Assembly: GCA_028278525.1 (NCBI GenBank)
Contig: JANQEE010000006.1
Coordinates: 1 to 64,000 of the forward strand
Direction of reading: 5' to 3'
Length of the DNA stretch: 64,000 nt
Source of the DNA: Minwuiaceae bacterium
GTDB taxonomy: Bacteria > Pseudomonadota > Alphaproteobacteria > Minwuiales > Minwuiaceae
Shown in pieces: positions 38,260 to 64,000 of the stretch; the stretch's first letter is position 1, and each line of letters starts with the position of its first letter. A program made the position numbers and the translations under genes. The notes below the pieces were generated by a model. The model was not told where the DNA came from and did not search any database. It saw only the letters and a list, made by a program, of their open reading frames with translations.

Positions 38260-38312
38260 TTGGTGGAGCCAGGCGGAATCGAACCGCCGACCTCTTGAAT
38301 GCCATTCAAGCG
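38260..38312 (-). repeat. Left attachment site: orphan 3' fragment of tRNA-Ala
   Basis: These 53 bases equal 63549-63601 exactly. They contain the anticodon arm, variable loop, T arm, acceptor 3' strand and CCA of tRNA-Ala(GGC), without the 5' half. It is the host copy of the attachment core left after integration. The crossover probably lies within the anticodon stem-loop palindrome, as for many tRNA-targeting integrases. Confidence 0.95.
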
Positions 38313-38473: not shown

Positions 38474-39700
38474 ATGGCGACAGTCAAGCTCACCAAGCGG
38501 GGCATCGATCAATTCGTCTACCACGGCACAACGGACGAGCAAGGTCGCGCGAGCCGGGACATTCGTTGGGATACCGAGACAAGGGGATTTGGTGTCCGCG
38601 TCTATCCGTTCAACGAAGACCGACAGCTTTTTCCCAAGGCTTTCGTACTCAGCTACCGTGTGAACGGACGCAAGCGGTTGATGACCATTGCCGATTACGG
38701 TGACCTCACGCTATCCGAGGCTCGGGATCGCGCGACGAAGTACCGCGTTCAGGCCAAAGACGGCATCGATCCCCTCGAGGAAAAGCGACAGGAGGCCCTC
38801 GGTTCGACGTTTGGCGACCTGTGCAAGCGATATCTCGATAAGCATGCCAAGGTTCACAAGAAGACCTGGAAAACCGATGACGGCAGGTTAGAACGCCACA
38901 TCCCGAGGGCCTGGAAGTCGCGGAAGGTTCAGGCCATCTCTCATGCCGACATTCAGGGCCTCCACCGGGAAATCGGTCGGACACGCCCGTACGAGGCCAA
39001 CAGAACACTGGACCTTCTGCGGGTTATGTTCAACGTCGCTCGACCTTGGTATCCAGTCCTGCAAAAGGCCGACAATCCAGCAGACAACATCAAGAAATTC
39101 GCTGAGAGCGAACGTAAGCGGTTCGCCAGGGCGGACGAGATGCCGCGGATCGCGAGAGCGATCGATGCCGAGTCGAACGTTTATGTTCGTGCCGCCCTTT
39201 GGCTGTACCTGCTTACCGGTGCGAGAAAGCAAGAATTGCTTCCGCGCAATCGATCAGAGATAGAGCGGTCCCCGGACAGAATCAGGTTGCCGGATACCAA
39301 ATCGGGCGAGGAGCAGTACATCCCGCTGTCCGCGCCAGCGATGGCGATCGTGCAGGCGATCCCAGAAGTCAAGGGTAACCCTTATCTCCTGCCAGGCGCC
39401 CGACAGGGGAAGCATCTCGTGAACATCGACAAGCCCTGGCGCCGGGTGCGCAAAGCCGCAGGGTGTGAAGACCTTACCTTGCACGATCTTCGGAGAAGCG
39501 TCGGCAGCTGGATGACAGATGATGGTGTCGACCTGAACCGGATCAAGAACGCTCTCCGACATGCCAACATCTCGACCACCATGCGATATGCACGACTAGG
39601 CGACGATGCGGCGCGCGAGCCGTTGGAGCGGCACGGCAAGCGGATTATTGAAGCCACTGGGCGAGTTCGTGTTGTCGAAAGGGATATTGCCGATGAGTGA
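38474..39700 (+). CDS. Tyrosine-type site-specific integrase (P4-like)
   Basis: The integrase inserts and excises the element at tRNA-Ala. The 408-residue protein has an N-terminal DUF4102-type arm-binding domain (residues 1-105, with YRVNGRKRLMTIADYGDLTLSEAR), a core-binding domain (110-210), and the catalytic domain. Catalytic residues are Arg251 (TGARKQELL), Lys276 (DTKSGEE), His337/Arg340 (HDLRRSVGSW), His363 (RHANISTTM) and nucleophile Tyr372 (RYARLG). All are present, so the enzyme looks active. Its stop overlaps the next gene (ATGAGTGA). Confidence 0.97.
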   Translation: MATVKLTKRGIDQFVYHGTTDEQGRASRDIRWDTETRGFGVRVYPFNEDRQLFPKAFVLSYRVNGRKRLMTIADYGDLTLSEARDRATKYRVQAKDGIDPLEEKRQEALGSTFGDLCKRYLDKHAKVHKKTWKTDDGRLERHIPRAWKSRKVQAISHADIQGLHREIGRTRPYEANRTLDLLRVMFNVARPWYPVLQKADNPADNIKKFAESERKRFARADEMPRIARAIDAESNVYVRAALWLYLLTGARKQELLPRNRSEIERSPDRIRLPDTKSGEEQYIPLSAPAMAIVQAIPEVKGNPYLLPGARQGKHLVNIDKPWRRVRKAAGCEDLTLHDLRRSVGSWMTDDGVDLNRIKNALRHANISTTMRYARLGDDAAREPLERHGKRIIEATGRVRVVERDIADE

Positions 39701-40658: not shown

Positions 40659-40931
40659 ATGCCTCTCGAACACCAACCTACGGAGTCCCGCGGTTCCGAT
40701 CAGGAGGTCCAGCCCGACAGTCAGACCTACTGGTACGAACTGATCAACGAGCGCGAAGCTGCCGCGTTCCTTGGTTTGACCAGCCGTACGCTGCAAGGGT
40801 TTCGCTGGAAAGGCGGTGGGCCTCGGTACATCAAGATCTCGTCAAGATGCCTTCGCTACCGGCGGACAGACCTTCGCGAATGGAGCGAAAGCAGAATGCG
40901 CTCCAACACATCGGAGACCGCAGCCGCGTGA
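40659..40931 (+). CDS. AlpA/excisionase-like helix-turn-helix protein
   Basis: This 90-residue protein contains the MerR-like HTH_17 pattern used by AlpA regulators and excisionases: LINEREAAAFLGLTSRTLQGFRWKGGGPRYIK, read here as residues about 29-58, followed by RYRRTDLREWSES. Such proteins bind attachment sites or activate integrase and help excision. GAAGGG lies eight bases before the ATG. It leads the co-directional replication gene cluster. Confidence 0.85.
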   Translation: MPLEHQPTESRGSDQEVQPDSQTYWYELINEREAAAFLGLTSRTLQGFRWKGGGPRYIKISSRCLRYRRTDLREWSESRMRSNTSETAAA

Positions 40932-41725: not shown

Positions 41726-42490
41726 ATGGCGGGCCCGACACTGCTCATGAAATGGCGCTTGGTCCAGGCCATGAACGCGGACGATAGTCTGACCCGCGGA
41801 GCCATCAAAACCGCTTTGGCGTTACTCGACCACTGCAATAGCCGGACTGGGCTCTGCAACCCCTCACGCGCCACGATTGCGGCCGAGACGAATACCGATC
41901 TATCGACGGTCAAACGCTCGGTCCGCCAGCTGATCGAGGCAGGCTGGTTTCGGCAGTTGGCGAACCAAGGCGGGCGCGGCCACAGCACGAGGTACGCGCC
42001 AGTTTTCGACCGCCTCGACGCAGACACCGAAGAAAGGGGGGCGCCAGTGACCCCTATTAGCGAAGAAACGGGTTCAGCGGTGCCCCCCTTTATTCAAGAG
42101 AGGGGGTCATCCATGCCCATAAAGGGGGTCACCGGTGACCCAAAAAGGGGGGCGCCAGTGACCCCCGAATCCGGGAAGGAAACCGGGAAGAAACCGAAGG
42201 ACGCCAAATCGTACAGATTTGAGGGGCAGATCATCCGCCTCAACAAGTCCGATTTCGACACGTGGCAAGAGACCTTTCACTCCGTCACGGACCTTCGGGC
42301 CGAACTGATGTCGATCGACATTTGGCTCGTAAGTCATCCGAAGGCGCAGAAGGGATGGTTTTACCGTGTCTCGGCCATGTTGAACCGAAAACACCAGGCC
42401 AACCTGGCCAAGCAACGTGCCGATGCGGGAGCGGAATCATCGGGCGCAGTCCGAGCGTTCTCCGGCCCCGACGGAACACCGCTCGTATGA
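41726..42490 (+). CDS. Replication initiator-like protein (lambda O-type layout)
   Basis: This 254-residue protein has an N-terminal winged HTH (LTRGAIKTALALLDHCN; RATIAAETNTDLSTVKRSVR; LIEAGWFRQL, residues 20-80). A repetitive linker (about 100-150) is encoded by iteron-like DNA repeats, and a C-terminal domain (155-235, FYRVSAMLNRKHQANLAKQ) would contact a helicase. This layout is that of phage lambda O-like initiators, whose origin lies inside their own gene. The gene is followed directly by primase and helicase genes. Function is inferred; no enzymatic motif is expected. Confidence 0.7.
   Translation: MAGPTLLMKWRLVQAMNADDSLTRGAIKTALALLDHCNSRTGLCNPSRATIAAETNTDLSTVKRSVRQLIEAGWFRQLANQGGRGHSTRYAPVFDRLDADTEERGAPVTPISEETGSAVPPFIQERGSSMPIKGVTGDPKRGAPVTPESGKETGKKPKDAKSYRFEGQIIRLNKSDFDTWQETFHSVTDLRAELMSIDIWLVSHPKAQKGWFYRVSAMLNRKHQANLAKQRADAGAESSGAVRAFSGPDGTPLV
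42033..42166. repeat. Iteron-like repeats inside the initiator gene (probable origin)
   Basis: Five related copies of AAAGGGGG(G/T)C-n-CC-n-n-TG-ACCC occur. Copies at 42033-42055, 42121-42141 and 42144-42166 are direct; 42099-42121 is a shorter direct copy; 42075-42092 is inverted. The first and last share 22 or more bases. The copy at 42124-42141 contains a 16-bp perfect palindrome. The encoded residues are the dull repeated RGAPVTP linker, so selection seems to act on DNA. This is the arrangement of a phage replication origin. Confidence 0.7.
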
Positions 42491-47404: not shown

Positions 47405-48670
47405 TCACGGGAACTCCCGGTCGTGCCGACCGCCCACGTAGCAGTAGTAATGGCCGTGGAACCCGATCTCCTTTAGCAAGATGCGGGTGACGAGTTCTCG
47501 CGCCAAGATGATGCTTGGCCAGATGTCTACACCATCAGGACCGGTGCCTTTGTGAACAATCGTGTTTCTAAGTTCGATCAGGCCTCGAATGACCGCGTCG
47601 TCAAAATCCCGCTTTGGGATCTTGTAATGAGGAAAGAGGGCTTGGATTTTCATAGATAATGTCTTCTGATTCAATTGAGATACTTTGGCCTTTAGGATCT
47701 CTTTGGGGCTCTCAGCCAGCGTGCTGTCAGCTTCGACAACGCGCTCGATCTCTTGTCTCAAAGGTATGAATTCCTTCTTCGCGACGATGGTGCCGCGGCG
47801 TTCCGGCAACTCGCTATCGATGATCGATTCGAGCGCTGTCATAGCTGACAGGAACCGTATTTCGTCAAAGGTCGTGTCGATCTGCATCCAGCCAAGCGCA
47901 GTCCACAGCTTGTCCCGAAGCGGACCTTTATTCTCGTATCGTTCCGCCAACGCACGGATGAAAGGCCCATGGTTCAAGTGCGGCAGAACCGCCATCTCCG
48001 GCTTGAAACCCTCGCCTTCATAAAATGTCGCTTCCGCTGTTTGGCCGTGCACATAGTCCAACCGAGGCGTCTGTAATCTCCCACCATGTGCAAAGGCGAG
48101 CCCTTGGTGCATGTGGGCGAGGAACTCGTCTGCATCCTCATGCCAATTGGGACCGGGGTCTTGGGTCGGAGCCACAAGTGCAACTGAGCCTGACATGTCA
48201 TCATGCGATACGGATTGTGCCTCACCATGGACTAAAAGCTTGCCGAGAGTGGTATCGACGGGTGGATTTCGGAACGACTTAAATGAACGAAACCATAACC
48301 TTAGTGTTGGTCTTTCGACCGCCTCACCGAGGCTGCCCGTTATAGTGGCGACCCGAGCGGTCACGCGTATCTGGTAGCCATTTTCGTTTATCCGGGTCGC
48401 CGTCGTCGAAACGCTATCTGACGTGAAACTTTTGCCGTCAGCGCCTTGCCCCGTCAGTTTGAATTCCTCGACGTTCGTGCCAGGATTTCCCCTTTGGCGT
48501 AGCACCTTCATGTACGTTGCTCTGTCAACAGGGTCGACATCGAAAACCAGACGGCAATCCGATCCCGCAGAAAGTCGAAACGAAATCGGAGCAGTCTCCC
48601 CTTCTATCGAGATCTCGCCAACAAATTCGGTCTCTTCGAGAATCGGTTCGTTTGTGTCTGACGGGCCCAT
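47405..48670 (-). CDS. HEPN-domain protein, ApeA-like (putative anti-phage)
   Basis: This 421-residue protein has a beta-rich N-terminal half (about 1-180) followed by a helical C-terminal domain ending with ELRNTIVHKGTGPDG. Arg368-x4-His373 is the R-x4-H RNase motif of HEPN domains. A two-part layout of this kind is seen in ApeA-type single-gene anti-phage proteins, in which a sensor region controls an RNA-cleaving HEPN domain. The start MGPSDTNEPILEETEF was chosen over a longer basic extension. It is relatively AT-rich compared with host genes. Assignment to ApeA itself is tentative. Confidence 0.6.
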   Translation of the reverse strand: MGPSDTNEPILEETEFVGEISIEGETAPISFRLSAGSDCRLVFDVDPVDRATYMKVLRQRGNPGTNVEEFKLTGQGADGKSFTSDSVSTTATRINENGYQIRVTARVATITGSLGEAVERPTLRLWFRSFKSFRNPPVDTTLGKLLVHGEAQSVSHDDMSGSVALVAPTQDPGPNWHEDADEFLAHMHQGLAFAHGGRLQTPRLDYVHGQTAEATFYEGEGFKPEMAVLPHLNHGPFIRALAERYENKGPLRDKLWTALGWMQIDTTFDEIRFLSAMTALESIIDSELPERRGTIVAKKEFIPLRQEIERVVEADSTLAESPKEILKAKVSQLNQKTLSMKIQALFPHYKIPKRDFDDAVIRGLIELRNTIVHKGTGPDGVDIWPSIILARELVTRILLKEIGFHGHYYCYVGGRHDREFP

Positions 48671-48822
48671 GGGTGGTCTTTTCGATTTGCGGCGGGTTTT
48701 TGATCGAGTGATGAAGCTAACGCATAGAAACACAGCCGGCGGCCGGATATCTACGACCATCGTACGGTTCAGCTATTTGGGCAGTTGTGGGCGCCGAAGA
48801 GCCACTATGAACGGGTCCGTCG

Positions 48823-53409: not shown

Positions 53410-55665
53410 CTAACTCACAGACGGCTCGCCGACTTTCGCAGAGGATACATCCGGTACCGGTTCTTCTTCGCGAGTGACTACGCTGGAAGAGATCTTCTTA
53501 AATCGCTTCACCAAGTTCGAATCCGGCGGCCATGCAGTATCCTTCGAACGGCTTACGTGCGCAGCCTTCGCCTTCTTGAACGCCTCCCGATCGTCCTTGT
53601 CTTGAAACTCAGCTTCGTTAAAGGGAATGTTCGATGATCCTGGCAGGCAGCGGTCTATTGAGGCAATGGCAACAAGGGAGGACTCGTCGATCGTATCGGC
53701 CTCAGGCTCTTCGCTCTCGCCGCGCAAGAGCATAGCGAGGAGACGCAATCGATTGATGAAGCGTTTTAACGCTCGTGGCGTACTTAGGCGCGTAGCCATG
53801 AGCGGATACCAGTCCGTCAGCGCATTGACGAATTCATCGGAGTCGTCGAGTACATCTCCGGCGGTGCGCAGCGCCTCTCTCTGACTACGGACTGCGCGTA
53901 CTAACAGTGCAAAGAGCGTGAGGGCGACCAAACCGCTCACGCTCCCAACGACGCTCAGTTGGTCGACTGGCGCCGACGTCGCTACAACGGTCGGGCTATC
54001 TTGGCTTGGTCCCTTCAAGATGAGACCGAAGCCGTAGGCCAAACCGCCCGCCGCAAAAACACCAAGGAGTGTTGGAAAATAGATCTTCCACGAAGCCAAG
54101 CGCACCCGAAATGGTCTGTGGTCAGAGGCGACGGTCGGTTGTTTCTGCTCTTCGCTCAGTATGGCCAAGGCCCCAGCTTCGGGCAGATCTGGCACCTGGA
54201 CCTCGACATTGACCAGCTTTTCAAGATAGTTCTCAGCGAATGCGCGACGCTGAGCCTTACGCGATTGCAAACTCTTCGCCGGTCCATCTGCGGAGACAAA
54301 AGCCGCCACGTCTTTGAAGGAGAACGCCACGCTATCGATCACGCGTTGGCGCTCGAGTCCCATAACCACAACGCATTCGCCCGATGACACAAGAAAGTTG
54401 ATGGCTTCCAATACCTCGAGGACACGCTCTGGCCTACAGCGGTCCAGATCGTCGACCAGTATGACGGGGGTAAGCGGGGCAAGCGCCTGGGCCACGTCGC
54501 GAAATTCGCCGCCAAACCGATGGCGGAAGCTCAACCGATCACGAAACTGAGCGACACGGGTGAGGCGGCCGACTGACGCTGTCAGACGCGCCGGGTCTAG
54601 CAACGTGTTGCGAAGGCGCACGCGCATCGTGAGCAAGAAGGCGAGAAGCGCGCCCACACCGGGCAATGCGGCAACCGCTTCGATAGTCTCGGGCTTGTCT
54701 TTGTTGTCAGAGACTAGGGCCATCATCTTATCGAATTCAGGTCCAGCGCCCGACGCTATGAGCCCAAGCTGAAGTGCGAGCAAACCAAGGATCACCACAA
54801 AGATCCCAGGCTTGCGTTTCGCTCGAATCCAAAACAGCCGTAAGCGGAAGACCAGTCCTGCGACGGTCCACCATCCCGGAAACGCAGCAACCCGCAACGT
54901 CTCAAGCAGCGACGCTAGAAAGTGCTCTTCCGTCTGGTGGTGCCACGCATTGAACCAAACGGGCCTGTAGCCATGCTTCTCCAAATCCGCCTTGAGGAGG
55001 CTCATAATCGAGCTCTTGCCTGTACCCCACGCACCTACAATCGCGAGGGTCAGCGGAGTTTGTGTCTGTTCATTTCGGAGAAAACCGGAAATGCCGCGAG
55101 CGAGGTTGCCATAACCAAGCGGATCCGGATCGCCTGCGCGCAGTGGGCGATCCGAGACTAGGCGGTCCGCGATGGAACGGCGGCGTCCGCTGTGCTCGTC
55201 TGCTTCATCAGCCTCGGGACTACGTTCCGCCGAGTCTGAGGGGACTTCCTTTCTTGGTAGAGGTTTTCTGAAGTGATACCGGCTCGATCGCTCGAGAAGG
55301 ACTTGGTCCATTTTTTGAAACACTGGAACGTACCTAAGGCCCAACCATATCCCCAGCGTCGTTGCCGCTATGAAAGTTTGCGTATTAAAGAAGATATCGA
55401 GGTCCAACGTGCTGGCCAGATCCGGCCAAATGGCACTATTTGAAACGTACAGAAAAATCCAAAATGCCACATTGCTGATTTGGTACAAGCTTATCAAAAT
55501 CCACTTGAAATCTTGATCTGGCAAGCTGGCCCACAGTGAAGGCTCCGTGTTGTCATGTACGAAAGCACGTTCTCGCCGCACGGACACGCTGTAGACGACA
55601 AATAAGAAAATCCCGGCGATGAACCAGTCCAGATATACGCGGATGTCTACGCTGACAGTGGTCAT
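53410..55665 (-). CDS. KAP-family P-loop NTPase
   Basis: This 751-residue protein has two or three N-terminal membrane segments (10-28, 56-75, 95-112). The KAP NTPase domain starts at GYGNLARGISGFLR, with Walker A GAWGTGKSS (211-219), WFNAWHHQTEEHFLASL, a membrane-inserted region (260-345), and Walker B ILVDDLDRCRPERVLEVLEA. Two more membrane helices lie near 530-590 before an acidic C-terminus. Membrane insertion between Walker A and B is typical of the KAP family, which includes PifA, the F-plasmid protein that excludes phage T7. Confidence 0.9.
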   Translation of the reverse strand: MTTVSVDIRVYLDWFIAGIFLFVVYSVSVRRERAFVHDNTEPSLWASLPDQDFKWILISLYQISNVAFWIFLYVSNSAIWPDLASTLDLDIFFNTQTFIAATTLGIWLGLRYVPVFQKMDQVLLERSSRYHFRKPLPRKEVPSDSAERSPEADEADEHSGRRRSIADRLVSDRPLRAGDPDPLGYGNLARGISGFLRNEQTQTPLTLAIVGAWGTGKSSIMSLLKADLEKHGYRPVWFNAWHHQTEEHFLASLLETLRVAAFPGWWTVAGLVFRLRLFWIRAKRKPGIFVVILGLLALQLGLIASGAGPEFDKMMALVSDNKDKPETIEAVAALPGVGALLAFLLTMRVRLRNTLLDPARLTASVGRLTRVAQFRDRLSFRHRFGGEFRDVAQALAPLTPVILVDDLDRCRPERVLEVLEAINFLVSSGECVVVMGLERQRVIDSVAFSFKDVAAFVSADGPAKSLQSRKAQRRAFAENYLEKLVNVEVQVPDLPEAGALAILSEEQKQPTVASDHRPFRVRLASWKIYFPTLLGVFAAGGLAYGFGLILKGPSQDSPTVVATSAPVDQLSVVGSVSGLVALTLFALLVRAVRSQREALRTAGDVLDDSDEFVNALTDWYPLMATRLSTPRALKRFINRLRLLAMLLRGESEEPEADTIDESSLVAIASIDRCLPGSSNIPFNEAEFQDKDDREAFKKAKAAHVSRSKDTAWPPDSNLVKRFKKISSSVVTREEEPVPDVSSAKVGEPSVS

Positions 55666-57523: not shown

Positions 57524-60500
57524 TCACCGCGCAGGCCGCGCTTGGCCAGATTGCCCAGCCAGGTCCTCGACCCGCTGCCGCACAGACTCCCGGAGCACGT
57601 CGGAGTTTTGCGCCAGGAACGCGGCACGCGCCACCGTCCGCGCCGCGCTGTTCGTTCGCCGGATCAGTTCTCGCTTCAGCCCGTCGCCCAAGCCGAGATA
57701 GGCGGGGCTCGCCACCAACTGATCAAGCGCACGCTTGGCGGCGCGGCCCGTCGCCACTTGCAGCTGGTCGAATTGCTGCGGCGTCAGTTCGACCCCGCGC
57801 AGCTTCCGGTCCTGCCGCTTGATTTCGATACGGAGCCTGACAATCTCGTCGGCGATCGGATCGTTGCGGCGGAAGCTCGAATAGATCGGTGAGATCAGGT
57901 CGGGGCCGAGGCCGCCGGACAGAACGATGGGCTCGCCCCACACATTGCGACGCGGCGGCAGATCTTTCGAGTAGCCCGGGATGCGGGCTCGGATCGCATC
58001 GAGTGCGGAACGGGTATCGCGCAAGACCGGGTCGCCTTCGAACGACGTGCCCGGCACGCCCTCGCGTGCGACCGCGGCGACGCCGGCAGGCACCAACGAC
58101 CCGGCGAGCCGCCGGATATAGCGCTCGCCGTAGCGGTCGGGGTCGTTGATCGTCTGGATCAGGTCCGAGAGGCCGGAAAGCCAGGTTTTGCTCACGAGGT
58201 TCTGTGCGACCGATCCGACGATCATGGCGGCGACGCGGTCGGCGTCGGGCCTCGACATCTCACCCGCGACTTCGGCGAAGTCGGCCGCGACGCCGAGCAG
58301 CAGGCCGAGCGGTTCGAGCCTGCCATAGCTGAAATAGCGGTCGCCGATCCTGACGCTGTAGGGCTGCCAGCCCGTCTCGCGAAGGGCGCCCCGCAGTTCG
58401 GGGTCGGACGGCCCGCCGCCGGTCAACAGCCCTTCCGCGGCGAGCCCGGCCGCGGCCAGCGCTACTGAGGTGCCGAGCGCCATGCGCGCTGTCGCTTCGT
58501 CGCGCGCTATCTGGCCGTTCCTGCCCTTCAGATCGTCGCGTACCCGCTGCATCAGCACGCCGAACGGCGAGCGCTCGGCTGCGAAAGTAATGATGTTGGC
58601 CGGGGTGCGGACGAACGGCACCACGACGCGCCCGCCCGGGACACGGTTGAGCGTCGACATGACGTTCTGGCCGATCCGACCGAGCGGGTTGGTGAACGTC
58701 ATCCGCTCGGCGAACGCCTGGGCCTGCGTCGCCAGGTCCTCGGGCGGGTCGCGCATGATCGACGAGATGAGCTCCGCCCGCTTCGCTCCCTTGAGCCGTT
58801 TTTGGGACGCCCGCCGGTAGGCAAGCGCATAGAGTGCCGAGCGCCGGTTGGCCGCTTTGAAGAATTCGTCTTCGGCCATCAGGAAGCGTCCGGGCAGGCG
58901 AGCTATCTGGCCCTTGACGCCGCTGATCGCCTGATGTCGGCGCGCTTCGACCTTGAGGGCGGGGTCGGATGGTTGCTCGGTCAGGAGCGTACGGCCGGCG
59001 AGGAACGCGCCGTCCTTGGCGCCCTGCAACAGGCCGAACGCCCGCATCGCGGCTTCGCCGGCATAGACCTTTTCGCCCGCTCTGAACGCGCCGATGCCGG
59101 AAGCGATCAGCGTTTCGGGAACAGTCCACATCGCCGTCAACGTGTTCGAGAGGATGTTGACCGCATGCGTCTTCGGCGACGACAGGAGGCCGTTGATCCA
59201 GATCTCGAACAGTTTGTCGCGCAGCTTAGCCCTGCCTTCATCGCGGACGAACGTGTTGAGCGTGCTGGGTTCGTCAAGGGTCGCGATTGAGCCCGCCAAG
59301 TCTTCGATCCGGTCCCGTCCGCCGGCCGACTGGATCAGTTTGTCGATGGCTCGCTGCCGCGCCGACTCCGTCCTGGCTGTGATCTGGAACGAGCGCAGCG
59401 CCCGTCCGGCTTCCGCCGTGATCCCGGTAACCTGCTCCTGGATCGCCTGATGTCGGCGCAGCGCCCGCATGAACTCCACCTGTTGTGCGTCGCTCCCGCG
59501 CTGCGCCTGTCTTGCGATCCGAACCAAGTTCTCGGCCGACTCGGCGAGCATCGTCCGGGCCGCCAACGCCTGCTCTGCGTTGAACGCCTGGCCGCGCTGC
59601 CGCTTCATCAGCCGGTCGAAGTTGAGCCCGAGGTCTTCGGCCAGCTGCTGCGTTTCGGCTACGCTCTGTACGCCGCGCCGCGCCTTTTCGATGCCGACGC
59701 CTTCCGCGGCGGCCACGAGCGCGGCCTTGATGTCTTCGGTGCTTTCAAGGCGATCCAAGGCGATGTTGCCGGCACGCTCGGCGTTGCTGCGTCGGCCGCT
59801 GGCGGCCAACACATCGCGGCCTGACGGTGACAGGATCTCGCCTTGCAGCGGTGCGGTTGCTTCCAGACCGGCTTGGTCGATCGGCGACAGCCCATCGAAC
59901 TGCCGGGCAATCTCCTGGTCGATCGCCTGGCGCGCCTGACCGTCCGTCAGGCCACCGATATCCACCCCAAGCTCGTCGGCTTCGCGCGCGATGTCGCGAT
60001 CCCCTTGCAACCCGTCGAGCAGATCGCGGTCATCCTGGGTGAACCGCCGCCCGGGTCCACCTGCCTCGGTCTCCCGCAATGCTTCAAGGAAATCGTCGAT
60101 CGAGGGGCGCTCGGCGAAGTCGTCGAAGAACCCCGACTGCCAGGCCAGCAGCGCCGCGTCGTCCAGGTTGAGGCCGCGTTCGTCGCTGATGATCGGACCG
60201 AGGAAGTTTTCGCCACGGACGAACGTCAGGTCGCGTGGTTGGTTGGTCAGGCCGAGGGAGCGCAACTCTCCTCGAAAATCCTTGAGCCCGCCCTGTGTTC
60301 GAAGCCAGGTAATCAGGTCCATCGGGCCGCGCCATTTCGTCCGACTCCCGTTCGACGTGATCACATCGGCGACAGGCAATTGCGTCGTGCCCGTCTCCGC
60401 CGCCTTCCGCTTGGCCACCGCCGCCGGGTTCTCTGCGAAGCGACCGGAGGCGGTCGGCCCCGGGGGTGGTGGATCGAGTGGCGGCGACGGCTTGACCGGT

Positions 60501-61681
60501 TCGACCGCTTCACCGCTCCGACGCGCGGGCGCCGGCAGCACGTGACCGGAATCGCGGGCGAGCGGCGCATCCGCTATCACTGGCGGCGCAGCGCGGTCGG
60601 TCGGCGCGGTCGGGGCAATGGCTGATAGGCTGGGCGTAGCTGACAGATCGGGCGGCACAACAGCTGCGTCCCCTGTTTGCGCGTTCGTTGCGGATTGGCG
60701 TCCCGCAGTCGCAGTCGCGATCTCGACTGGACCGGTAGCAATTTGCCCGATTGCCTCGGCGGCGATCTGCGGCGCGTTGAGTTCCTGCCCGGCGGACACC
60801 TGCCCCAACGCCTCGCCGCCGGCACCGAGCGCCGCTTGCGCGCCGACTTCGGACACAGCGCCAGCTACTGCCTGCGTGGCTCGCCCACCGCCGACGCTGC
60901 CCGCAGTCCGTGCAACCGGACCGAAGATCCGCCCGCCTACGCCAAACGACAGCATGTCCACCGCCGCGATGGGGATGCCTTTGCGAAGCGCGATCTCCCG
61001 CGCCCGGTTGAGCAGATCGGGATTGCGGAAGGCATCTGCGATTTGCCGTTCGTCGGTAAGGTCGACGCCCTGTTCGGCGAAAGTCTGCAACACCTCAGCG
61101 CCGGCTTCTAGGCCGAGAGAGCCGAGGCCGGCCGCCCCGGCCCCGGCCAGCGGTCCGCCGGCGGCCGTCGCCCCTGCCGAGAGTCCGAGGACCGGTGCGA
61201 ATTGGCCGAAGCTTTCGCCCATGATCGTCGCTGTGATTTCGAGAGGCGCATTGGCGAACGCCTTGGCCGCGCCCGTTCCCTCGGAAGCGAAGAAGGCGCG
61301 CACGTTCTCAGATGGCGGGTTTTCCAGGATCTTGCGCTGCTGCTCCGCAATGATCGGCGCGACCTGATCAGGATCGATGCCGAGCGCTCCGGCCGACGCG
61401 GCGAGCGAGGCGATACCCTGCTGTCCTCCCCGGCGCAGCACGTCTGCCGCTGCATCGTCGGTTGAGCGCAGCGCTGGTCCGGCTTGGCGCGACAGACCGA
61501 ACAGCGTCACCGGTTCGCTTATCGGTCGCGGACCGTCTGGGGCCAGATCATCAAACAGGCCAACCGGCGCACCACCGGTCGCCGATTGAGCTTCACTGAT
61601 CAGATCACTGAATAAGCCCGTTCCAGGCGACGCCTGCGATCCCTGGCGTGCTTCTGCAATGAGATCATCGAAAGCACCCAT
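57524..61681 (-). CDS. Phage-type large polyvalent / internal virion protein (LPD38-like)
   Basis: This 1385-residue protein starts with three short repeats (GAFDDLIAEARQ, GLFSDLISEAQS, GLFDDLAPDG). It then has Ala/Gly-rich membrane-like helices (150-330), a Pro-rich linker, an alpha-helical middle rich in Arg/Glu (about 640-800), and a C-terminal domain with SPKTHAVNILSNTLTAMW, RTPANIITFAAERSPFG and YFSYGRLEPLGLLLGVAADF. This resembles the large polyvalent proteins of podovirus-like phages and conjugative elements, which are carried in the virion and enter the host. Its TAATG junction with the upstream gene shows coupling. No peptidase or nuclease motif was identified. Confidence 0.7.
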   Translation of the reverse strand: MGAFDDLIAEARQGSQASPGTGLFSDLISEAQSATGGAPVGLFDDLAPDGPRPISEPVTLFGLSRQAGPALRSTDDAAADVLRRGGQQGIASLAASAGALGIDPDQVAPIIAEQQRKILENPPSENVRAFFASEGTGAAKAFANAPLEITATIMGESFGQFAPVLGLSAGATAAGGPLAGAGAAGLGSLGLEAGAEVLQTFAEQGVDLTDERQIADAFRNPDLLNRAREIALRKGIPIAAVDMLSFGVGGRIFGPVARTAGSVGGGRATQAVAGAVSEVGAQAALGAGGEALGQVSAGQELNAPQIAAEAIGQIATGPVEIATATAGRQSATNAQTGDAAVVPPDLSATPSLSAIAPTAPTDRAAPPVIADAPLARDSGHVLPAPARRSGEAVEPVKPSPPLDPPPPGPTASGRFAENPAAVAKRKAAETGTTQLPVADVITSNGSRTKWRGPMDLITWLRTQGGLKDFRGELRSLGLTNQPRDLTFVRGENFLGPIISDERGLNLDDAALLAWQSGFFDDFAERPSIDDFLEALRETEAGGPGRRFTQDDRDLLDGLQGDRDIAREADELGVDIGGLTDGQARQAIDQEIARQFDGLSPIDQAGLEATAPLQGEILSPSGRDVLAASGRRSNAERAGNIALDRLESTEDIKAALVAAAEGVGIEKARRGVQSVAETQQLAEDLGLNFDRLMKRQRGQAFNAEQALAARTMLAESAENLVRIARQAQRGSDAQQVEFMRALRRHQAIQEQVTGITAEAGRALRSFQITARTESARQRAIDKLIQSAGGRDRIEDLAGSIATLDEPSTLNTFVRDEGRAKLRDKLFEIWINGLLSSPKTHAVNILSNTLTAMWTVPETLIASGIGAFRAGEKVYAGEAAMRAFGLLQGAKDGAFLAGRTLLTEQPSDPALKVEARRHQAISGVKGQIARLPGRFLMAEDEFFKAANRRSALYALAYRRASQKRLKGAKRAELISSIMRDPPEDLATQAQAFAERMTFTNPLGRIGQNVMSTLNRVPGGRVVVPFVRTPANIITFAAERSPFGVLMQRVRDDLKGRNGQIARDEATARMALGTSVALAAAGLAAEGLLTGGGPSDPELRGALRETGWQPYSVRIGDRYFSYGRLEPLGLLLGVAADFAEVAGEMSRPDADRVAAMIVGSVAQNLVSKTWLSGLSDLIQTINDPDRYGERYIRRLAGSLVPAGVAAVAREGVPGTSFEGDPVLRDTRSALDAIRARIPGYSKDLPPRRNVWGEPIVLSGGLGPDLISPIYSSFRRNDPIADEIVRLRIEIKRQDRKLRGVELTPQQFDQLQVATGRAAKRALDQLVASPAYLGLGDGLKRELIRRTNSAARTVARAAFLAQNSDVLRESVRQRVEDLAGQSGQARPAR

Positions 61682-63548: not shown

Positions 63549-63625
<77 letters not shown>

Positions 63626-63722: not shown

Positions 63723-64000
63723 TCACGCTGATTTCTCTGCCCCTGCGTCATCGTCTGCCGGGATGTCGGTATCGTCGCCTCCGGGCAGGTCGTCGTCATC
63801 GTCCACGACAACGGCAATATCGTCGTCGTCATCGTCCAGCACGACATCGTCGTCGTTATCGTCGTCCAGGACGATATCGTCGTCTTCGGTGTCCGCTTCT
63901 TCCGCAACCGGCGCCTTGGCGACCGGGGCCTTCGGTGTCTTCTTGTCTTCCGAACTGCTGGAGCGCTTCGGCTTAAGAAGTACTTCCGGTTGGTTCTCCG
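63723..64000 (-). CDS. FYDLN-acid (TIGR02300-type) protein, C-terminal part
   Basis: Only the last 92 codons are in the window; the 5' end lies beyond the right edge. The sequence begins ENQPEVLLKPKRSSSSEDKK and becomes an Asp-dominated tail of D/V/L/I repeats (DDDIVLDDDNDDDVVLDD) to DAGAEKSA. Alphaproteobacterial FYDLN-acid proteins have an N-terminal zinc ribbon and such an acidic tail, and sit next to tRNA-Ala(GGC), as here. The family assignment rests on tail and context because the zinc ribbon is outside the window. Confidence 0.75.
   Translation of the reverse strand, partial: ENQPEVLLKPKRSSSSEDKKTPKAPVAKAPVAEEADTEDDDIVLDDDNDDDVVLDDDDDDIAVVVDDDDDLPGGDDTDIPADDDAGAEKSA

Follow-up and report, generated by a model that had tools for sequence, protein, structure and literature searches.

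Introduction

Several mobile genetic elements keep their origin of replication close to, or inside, the genes whose products act on it. In phage lambda, the middle of the initiator gene O contains 19-bp iterons, which are imperfect inverted repeats, next to an AT-rich tract that is required for unwinding (PMC7466680). The phages lambda, P22 and L each have different iterons in their initiator gene (PMC8022706); the design itself is therefore known, and that distantly related initiators carry iterons of their own has already been noted for these three phages. The origins of E. coli PICIs are built otherwise, with two sets of iterons around an AT-rich region and the origin placed after pri/rep (PMC6092414).

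Here we analyse a window of 64,000 nucleotides from an alphaproteobacterium of the family Minwuiaceae (contig JANQEE010000006.1, positions 1 to 64,000), in which a gene for a predicted replication initiator contains five related G-rich repeats. Judging from sequence comparisons, we consider it very probable that these repeats are iterons which, together with the DNA next to them on the downstream side, make up the replication origin of an integrated element, written into the element's own initiator gene. The preliminary description of this DNA had proposed such an embedded origin, and the proposal gains support from the linkers of homologous initiators, from the lambda and P22 controls and from the association of the repeats with one DNA-binding domain.

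The integrated element and its replication genes

The initiator gene belongs to an element of 25.3 kb (38260-63601) that is bounded by exact 53-bp direct repeats (Table 1). With such att repeats at both ends, the excised circle would measure about 25.3 kb; an intact tRNA-Ala(GGC) gene is kept at the right end. The cargo includes two defence-like genes, for a KAP NTPase (53410-55665, minus strand; PADLOC matches to QatA/PifA) and for an Apea-like HEPN protein (47405-48760, minus strand), and a 1385-aa protein (57524-61681, minus strand) matches the phage internal virion protein profile phrog_6651 (E 2.6e-40). The element proteins searched, which represent part of the ORFs, included no recognisable capsid or terminase, and the element may be a degraded prophage or a satellite. 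A 30-bp tandem repeat of 3.2 copies (63789-63888) lies just outside it.

Table 1. Features of the element and of the putative origin (window positions; centres are those of the palindromes).
Feature	Position	Strand	Remarks
att left	38260..38312		3' part of tRNA-Ala(GGC)
Tyrosine integrase	38474..39700	+	element's own
AlpA/excisionase-like HTH_17 protein	40659..40931	+	
HTH-only paralogue, 109 aa	41396..41725	+	38-39% identity to the initiator's HTH domain; without linker and C-terminal domain
Replication initiator (predicted), 254 aa	41726..42490	+	HTH_36 winged helix 23-74, disordered linker about 100-157, C-terminal domain 160-230
Iteron 1	42035..42056	+	AGGGGGGCGCCAGTGACCCCTA; centre 42045.5; codes for RGAPVTP
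Iteron 2	42068..42089	-	inverted; AGGGGGGCACCGCTGAACCCGT on minus strand; centre 42078.5
Iteron 3	42101..42122	+	degenerate; AGGGGGTCATCCATGCCCATAA; centre 42111.5
Iteron 4	42123..42144	+	contains perfect 16-nt palindrome GGGTCACCGGTGACCC; centre 42133.5
Iteron 5	42146..42167	+	near-identical to iteron 1; second RGAPVTP; centre 42156.5
Candidate unwinding stretch	42168..42246	+	purine-rich; putative role
Zinc-finger ORF, 99 aa	42487..42786	+	primase zinc-binding part; overlaps initiator stop codon (ATGA)
Toprim + DnaB/RecA-like primase-helicase, 493 aa	42683..44164	+	phrog_239, E 8e-76
att right	63549..63601		inside intact tRNA-Ala(GGC), 63550-63625 (-)

From the left end the genes run in the order integrase, unknown protein, AlpA-like protein, small ORF, HTH-only paralogue, initiator, zinc-finger ORF and Toprim/DnaB-like primase-helicase. 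The stop codon of the paralogue abuts the ATG of the initiator, whose own stop codon overlaps the start of the zinc-finger ORF, and such contact from each gene to the next implies co-translation. Primase and helicase genes had been said to follow the initiator directly, and they do, in the form of the zinc-finger ORF and the Toprim/DnaB-like protein. A helicase-loader gene (P or DnaC-like) is absent after the initiator, its place being taken by the primase-helicase, so that the module departs from the lambda type; relatives that share the initiator's C-terminal domain are partnered with DnaC-like or P loaders.

The zinc-finger and primase-helicase ORFs share about 100 nt, the second being in the +1 frame. 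Loci L045 and L046 have this +1 overlap as well, and so does Bradyrhizobium phage BDU-MI-1 (L054), whose zinc-finger ORF is unannotated; in plasmid pArsBee3 the two parts form one fused ORF. A Shine-Dalgarno-like GGAAGGGAG lies upstream of the helicase ATG, and programmed frameshifting may occur at the overlap.

The initiator belongs to the Pfam family HTH_36 (PF13730; 32.3 bits against a gathering cut-off of 25, E 8.8e-8) and to the PHROG family 'replication initiation O-like' (phrog_391; E 4.7e-10), the latter match covering residues 22-157, that is, the HTH domain and the start of the linker. Pfam Phage_rep_O (PF04492), which lambda O and P22 gp18 match with E about 1e-36, gave no passing match for the initiator in the profile search; HTH_36 alone passes. 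A PDB sequence search returned no match, and a structure model built from two sequences, with a mean pLDDT of 46, was unfit for fold comparison.

Five phased repeats in the linker-coding DNA

The array spans 42033-42167 and consists of five related palindromic G-rich repeats of about 20 bp, all within the initiator gene and in the part that codes for the linker joining the HTH domain to the C-terminal one, the place and number first proposed for them. The repeats start at 42033 (+), 42070 (inverted, best read on the minus strand), 42098 (+, degenerate), 42121 (+) and 42144 (+), and their best form is AGGGGGTCACCGGTGACCCAAA. At each site 5-8 of 11 arm positions pair, which makes the iterons imperfect inverted repeats. 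The distances between palindrome centres are 33, 33, 22 and 23 bp, or 3, 3, 2 and 2 helical turns.

The preliminary description had the five copies encode a repetitive RGAPVTP peptide. Copies 1 and 5 do encode RGAPVTP, but they are the only ones, and the five together yield no repetitive peptide: codon phases differ among the copies, and copy 4 lies in another phase than copies 1 and 5. Copies 1 and 5 are the same over 22 nt, while the last codon of RGAPVTP differs (CCT/CCC). Given the peptide, the sharing of their wobble positions has a p of about 2e-4, an approximate value because of that last codon.

We compared the array with chance and with protein repetition by counting, over both strands, 18-mers that did not overlap and agreed with a common anchor at 14 or more positions, and by exchanging codons between synonymous positions, so that both the protein and the codon usage stayed the same. 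The initiator gene holds five copies, of which four differ from the anchor in phase or orientation; none of 2000 synonymous shuffles gave five copies, and none of 2000 gave four out-of-phase or inverted ones. Among control ORFs (n = 69) the maximum was four copies, the single control with six being a homologue of the initiator gene. The initiator coding sequence thus contains several repeats of about 20 bp beyond what chance and protein repetition give. With a weight matrix made from the five sites, each scores 23-30 bits, and the best unrelated site within the window reaches 11. When the 5.95-Mb genome was scanned for the pattern, full matches appeared at this array and at one chance-like site; the two scans rule out a genome-wide dispersed repeat.

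These results bear on the alternative that the repeats exist at the level of the protein, a flexible RGAPVTP linker having been selected as a peptide and the similarity of the DNA being a by-product. Two copies encode the same peptide and the linker is predicted to be disordered, as such a reading would have it, and relatives with purely in-frame repeats are described below. Nevertheless, copies in another phase and an inverted copy cannot arise from a repeated peptide, neither the shuffles nor the shared wobble positions agree with it, and the spacings track the helix rather than the codon phase; we regard it as highly improbable. With mixed phases, an inverted copy 2 and a degenerate copy 3, what repeats is the DNA and not the peptide.

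The same script recovered the known origins. In lambda O it returned exactly the four annotated iterons, at gene nucleotides 348, 368, 392 and 415 (39034, 39054, 39078 and 39101), and in P22 gene 18 four sites at or just inside the annotated rep_origin, with spacings of 20, 24 and 23 and p = 0.002 in each gene, the floor of 500 shuffles. The arrangement in the window had been called exactly that of lambda O. The repeats do lie inside the initiator gene, as in lambda; the exactness does not hold, since lambda has four direct iterons at 20, 24 and 23, whereas here there are five, one of them inverted, at 33, 33, 22 and 23.

Linker repeats in related initiators

No close homologues of the initiator or of the helicase were found in viral_contigs and genome_contigs, an order-level search of nine genomes gave no match beyond the window's own genome, and no relatives more than 50% identical, in which change of the window's own iterons could be traced, were found; the comparison therefore rests on distant relatives. 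A PHROG search of 385 genomes of the same class found O-like genes in 38, and the relatives include Rhizobium and Bradyrhizobium sequences. The survey set comprised about 24 full-length genes, plasmid and phage matches included. An array was called where out-of-phase copies reached p <= 0.05 and lay in the linker, with 60 shuffles for most homologues.

Significant mixed-frame linker arrays occur in 13 of about 24 full-length genes, a count that depends on the threshold: the window's own and L004, L005, L006, L014, L015, L018, L021, L022, L037, L049, L050 and L051. The sequence of the repeat is distinct at every locus except in the enterobacterial plasmids L049 and L050, which share theirs. About 11 of the 24 full-length relatives (e.g., L033, L034) are without a significant mixed-frame linker array, and short HTH-only proteins mostly lack arrays; the embedded-iteron layout is common in this initiator family, not universal. 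The expectation that the linker DNA would stay repetitive among homologues was thus borne out, with repeats that mostly differ by lineage and with about 11 of 24 genes below the threshold. Because the linker DNA is repetitive, the repeats are mostly lineage-specific and the frames are mixed, selection on the protein cannot explain them. L021 (G228), a minus-strand gene, is a striking case, with nine iterons in near-strict 22/23-nt alternation, or two iterons per 15 codons, so that the coding and origin periods are locked together.

Adjacent same-strand spacings (n = 45, from 13 genes) peak at 22-23 nt and at longer multiples. A period of 10.7 bp fits them best (R 0.775), with a Rayleigh p of about 1e-11 at 10.5-11 bp, and modulo 3 the same spacings are evenly spread (15/13/17); together, the period and the even spread mean that the spacing follows the DNA helix and not the genetic code. 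Purely in-frame repeats, of the kind that repetition of a peptide would give, are present in BDU-MI-1 and in phages yong1 and Louie.

A recent tandem duplication by slippage, without function, could account for the 22-nt identity of copies 1 and 5. It offers no route to an inverted copy between direct ones or to spacings of whole turns, nor does it explain why arrays of other sequence reappear in unrelated initiators; we find it scarcely credible. The repeats are best read as iterons, and their distribution agrees with a role of the HTH_36 domain. Four initiators with another N-terminal domain (L003 of G017, L047 of G286, and those of phages yong1 and Louie) are without a mixed-frame array; they share the window initiator's C-terminal domain or its primase-helicase partner, and their number is small. 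That the repeats track the HTH_36 domain is as expected if HTH_36 reads them.

Natural domain swaps are seen in L003 (G017), L042 and L043, whose C-terminal domain is about 37-41% identical to that of the window initiator and whose N-terminal domain is another one; the partner is a DnaC-like loader in Louie and a zinc-finger/Toprim helicase in G017.

Anatomy of the putative origin and a proposed model for initiation

Counting palindromes on a 26-mer consensus was too noisy for significance at most single loci, and folding z-scores were used instead. Iteron regions fold better than shuffles at every one of the 13 loci tested (z -2.4 to -7.2), as is expected of palindromic iterons; the window itself gave z -5.2 and -6.2 in two tests, and lambda and P22 gave z -6.6 and -5.8. 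The inverted repeats could also act in RNA, as hairpins in the mRNA by which translation of the initiator and primase is attenuated or regulated, and folding so far above shuffles, here (z -5.2) and at 12 other loci, would suit them. Yet palindromes that are bound by proteins fold in this way too, as those of lambda and P22 show, whose DNA role is known, and neither the 10.7-bp period nor the link with the HTH domain is expected of RNA hairpins. Rfam yielded no family matches besides tRNA, and we hold an RNA role to be very unlikely. We set aside the idea that the G runs form a G-quadruplex, as the loops would be of about 16 nt or more and the iterons of relatives are mostly not based on G runs.

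To the right of the repeats the DNA tends to be AT-richer. In most of 16 loci the AT content of the 60 bp downstream is above that of the remaining gene, at a mean percentile of 0.82, and with lambda and P22 left out the Wilcoxon p is 0.0004. The 60 bp upstream show no excess (0.52). In the window the difference is mild, with an AT fraction of about 0.47 against 0.40 for the gene, at the 84th percentile of its 60-nt windows.

Replication initiators often autoregulate, and the 109-aa paralogue encoded just upstream shares the initiator's DNA-binding domain. The sites might accordingly be bound by the initiator or the paralogue mainly as an autoregulatory operator or roadblock, with replication starting elsewhere. 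The sites, however, are intragenic and downstream of the start of the operon, the element's upstream promoters have no further copies, and the regular phasing and AT-richer flank fit an origin; on balance an operator seems very unlikely. The paralogue's matches in other loci are to initiators only. More tentatively, and as a possibility that we rather doubt, it may compete with the initiator for the phased iterons, in which case one operon would supply both an activator and a dominant-negative inhibitor and so control copy number.

For the array as an origin, we infer the following course of binding, melting, helicase recruitment and replication. Dimers of the HTH_36 winged-helix N-terminal domain would bind each palindrome of about 20 bp and, because the five sites share one helix face (3, 3, 2 and 2 turns apart), could stack into an O-some-like complex. 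The stacked complex would open the somewhat AT-richer stretch to the right of the iterons, the C-terminal domain would recruit the element's own zinc-finger and Toprim-helicase proteins, and the excised circle would then replicate.

Comparison with known systems

Like Gram-negative PICIs, the element combines an integrase, an AlpA-like regulator, replication genes and accessory genes (PMC6092414). It departs from the PICI pattern in its size of 25 kb and in an origin that would lie inside the initiator gene with one set of iterons.

Nearly the same module is found in the Arsenophonus apicola plasmid pArsBee3, whose HTH_36 initiator aligns over both domains (29% identity over 77%), has linker repeats and is followed by a bifunctional primase/helicase as the next gene. 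The plasmid differs in being extrachromosomal, in its one-ORF primase-helicase and in its ATCCCAAAAACGG-like iterons.

With O and ori-lambda the locus shares palindromic iterons (about 19 bp in lambda) that code for the linker joining the DNA-binding domain to the C-terminal one; the DNA to their right is AT-richer too, if only mildly so in the window. The window initiator has no significant sequence similarity to lambda O, and lambda relies on the loader P and host DnaB, on four direct iterons and on a tract with 68% AT, against 47% here. The closest likeness is to P22 gene 18/gene 12, since in both the helicase is encoded by the element itself, directly downstream; gene 18 likewise has four iterons of about 20 bp inside it. 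The P22 proteins are of other kinds (gp18 belongs to PF04492 and gp12 is a true DnaB, compared with HTH_36 and a split zinc-finger/Toprim/DnaB-like primase-helicase), and the window array has five sites, one inverted, of another sequence.

As the best reading of these comparisons, the array appears to be lambda/P22-like in its working without the initiator being a member of Pfam Phage_rep_O. The simple protein-preserving shuffle test uncovers such hidden origins in raw genomes, and two of the results render the rule testable: spacings track the helix and not the codon phase, and iterons are absent where the N-terminal domain is a different one. Each initiator with its own iterons is a ready pair for studying the co-evolution of DNA-binding specificity and an overlapping coding sequence. 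Overall, the lambda/P22 design, with the origin within the initiator gene, would extend to HTH_36-type initiators and to another bacterial class.
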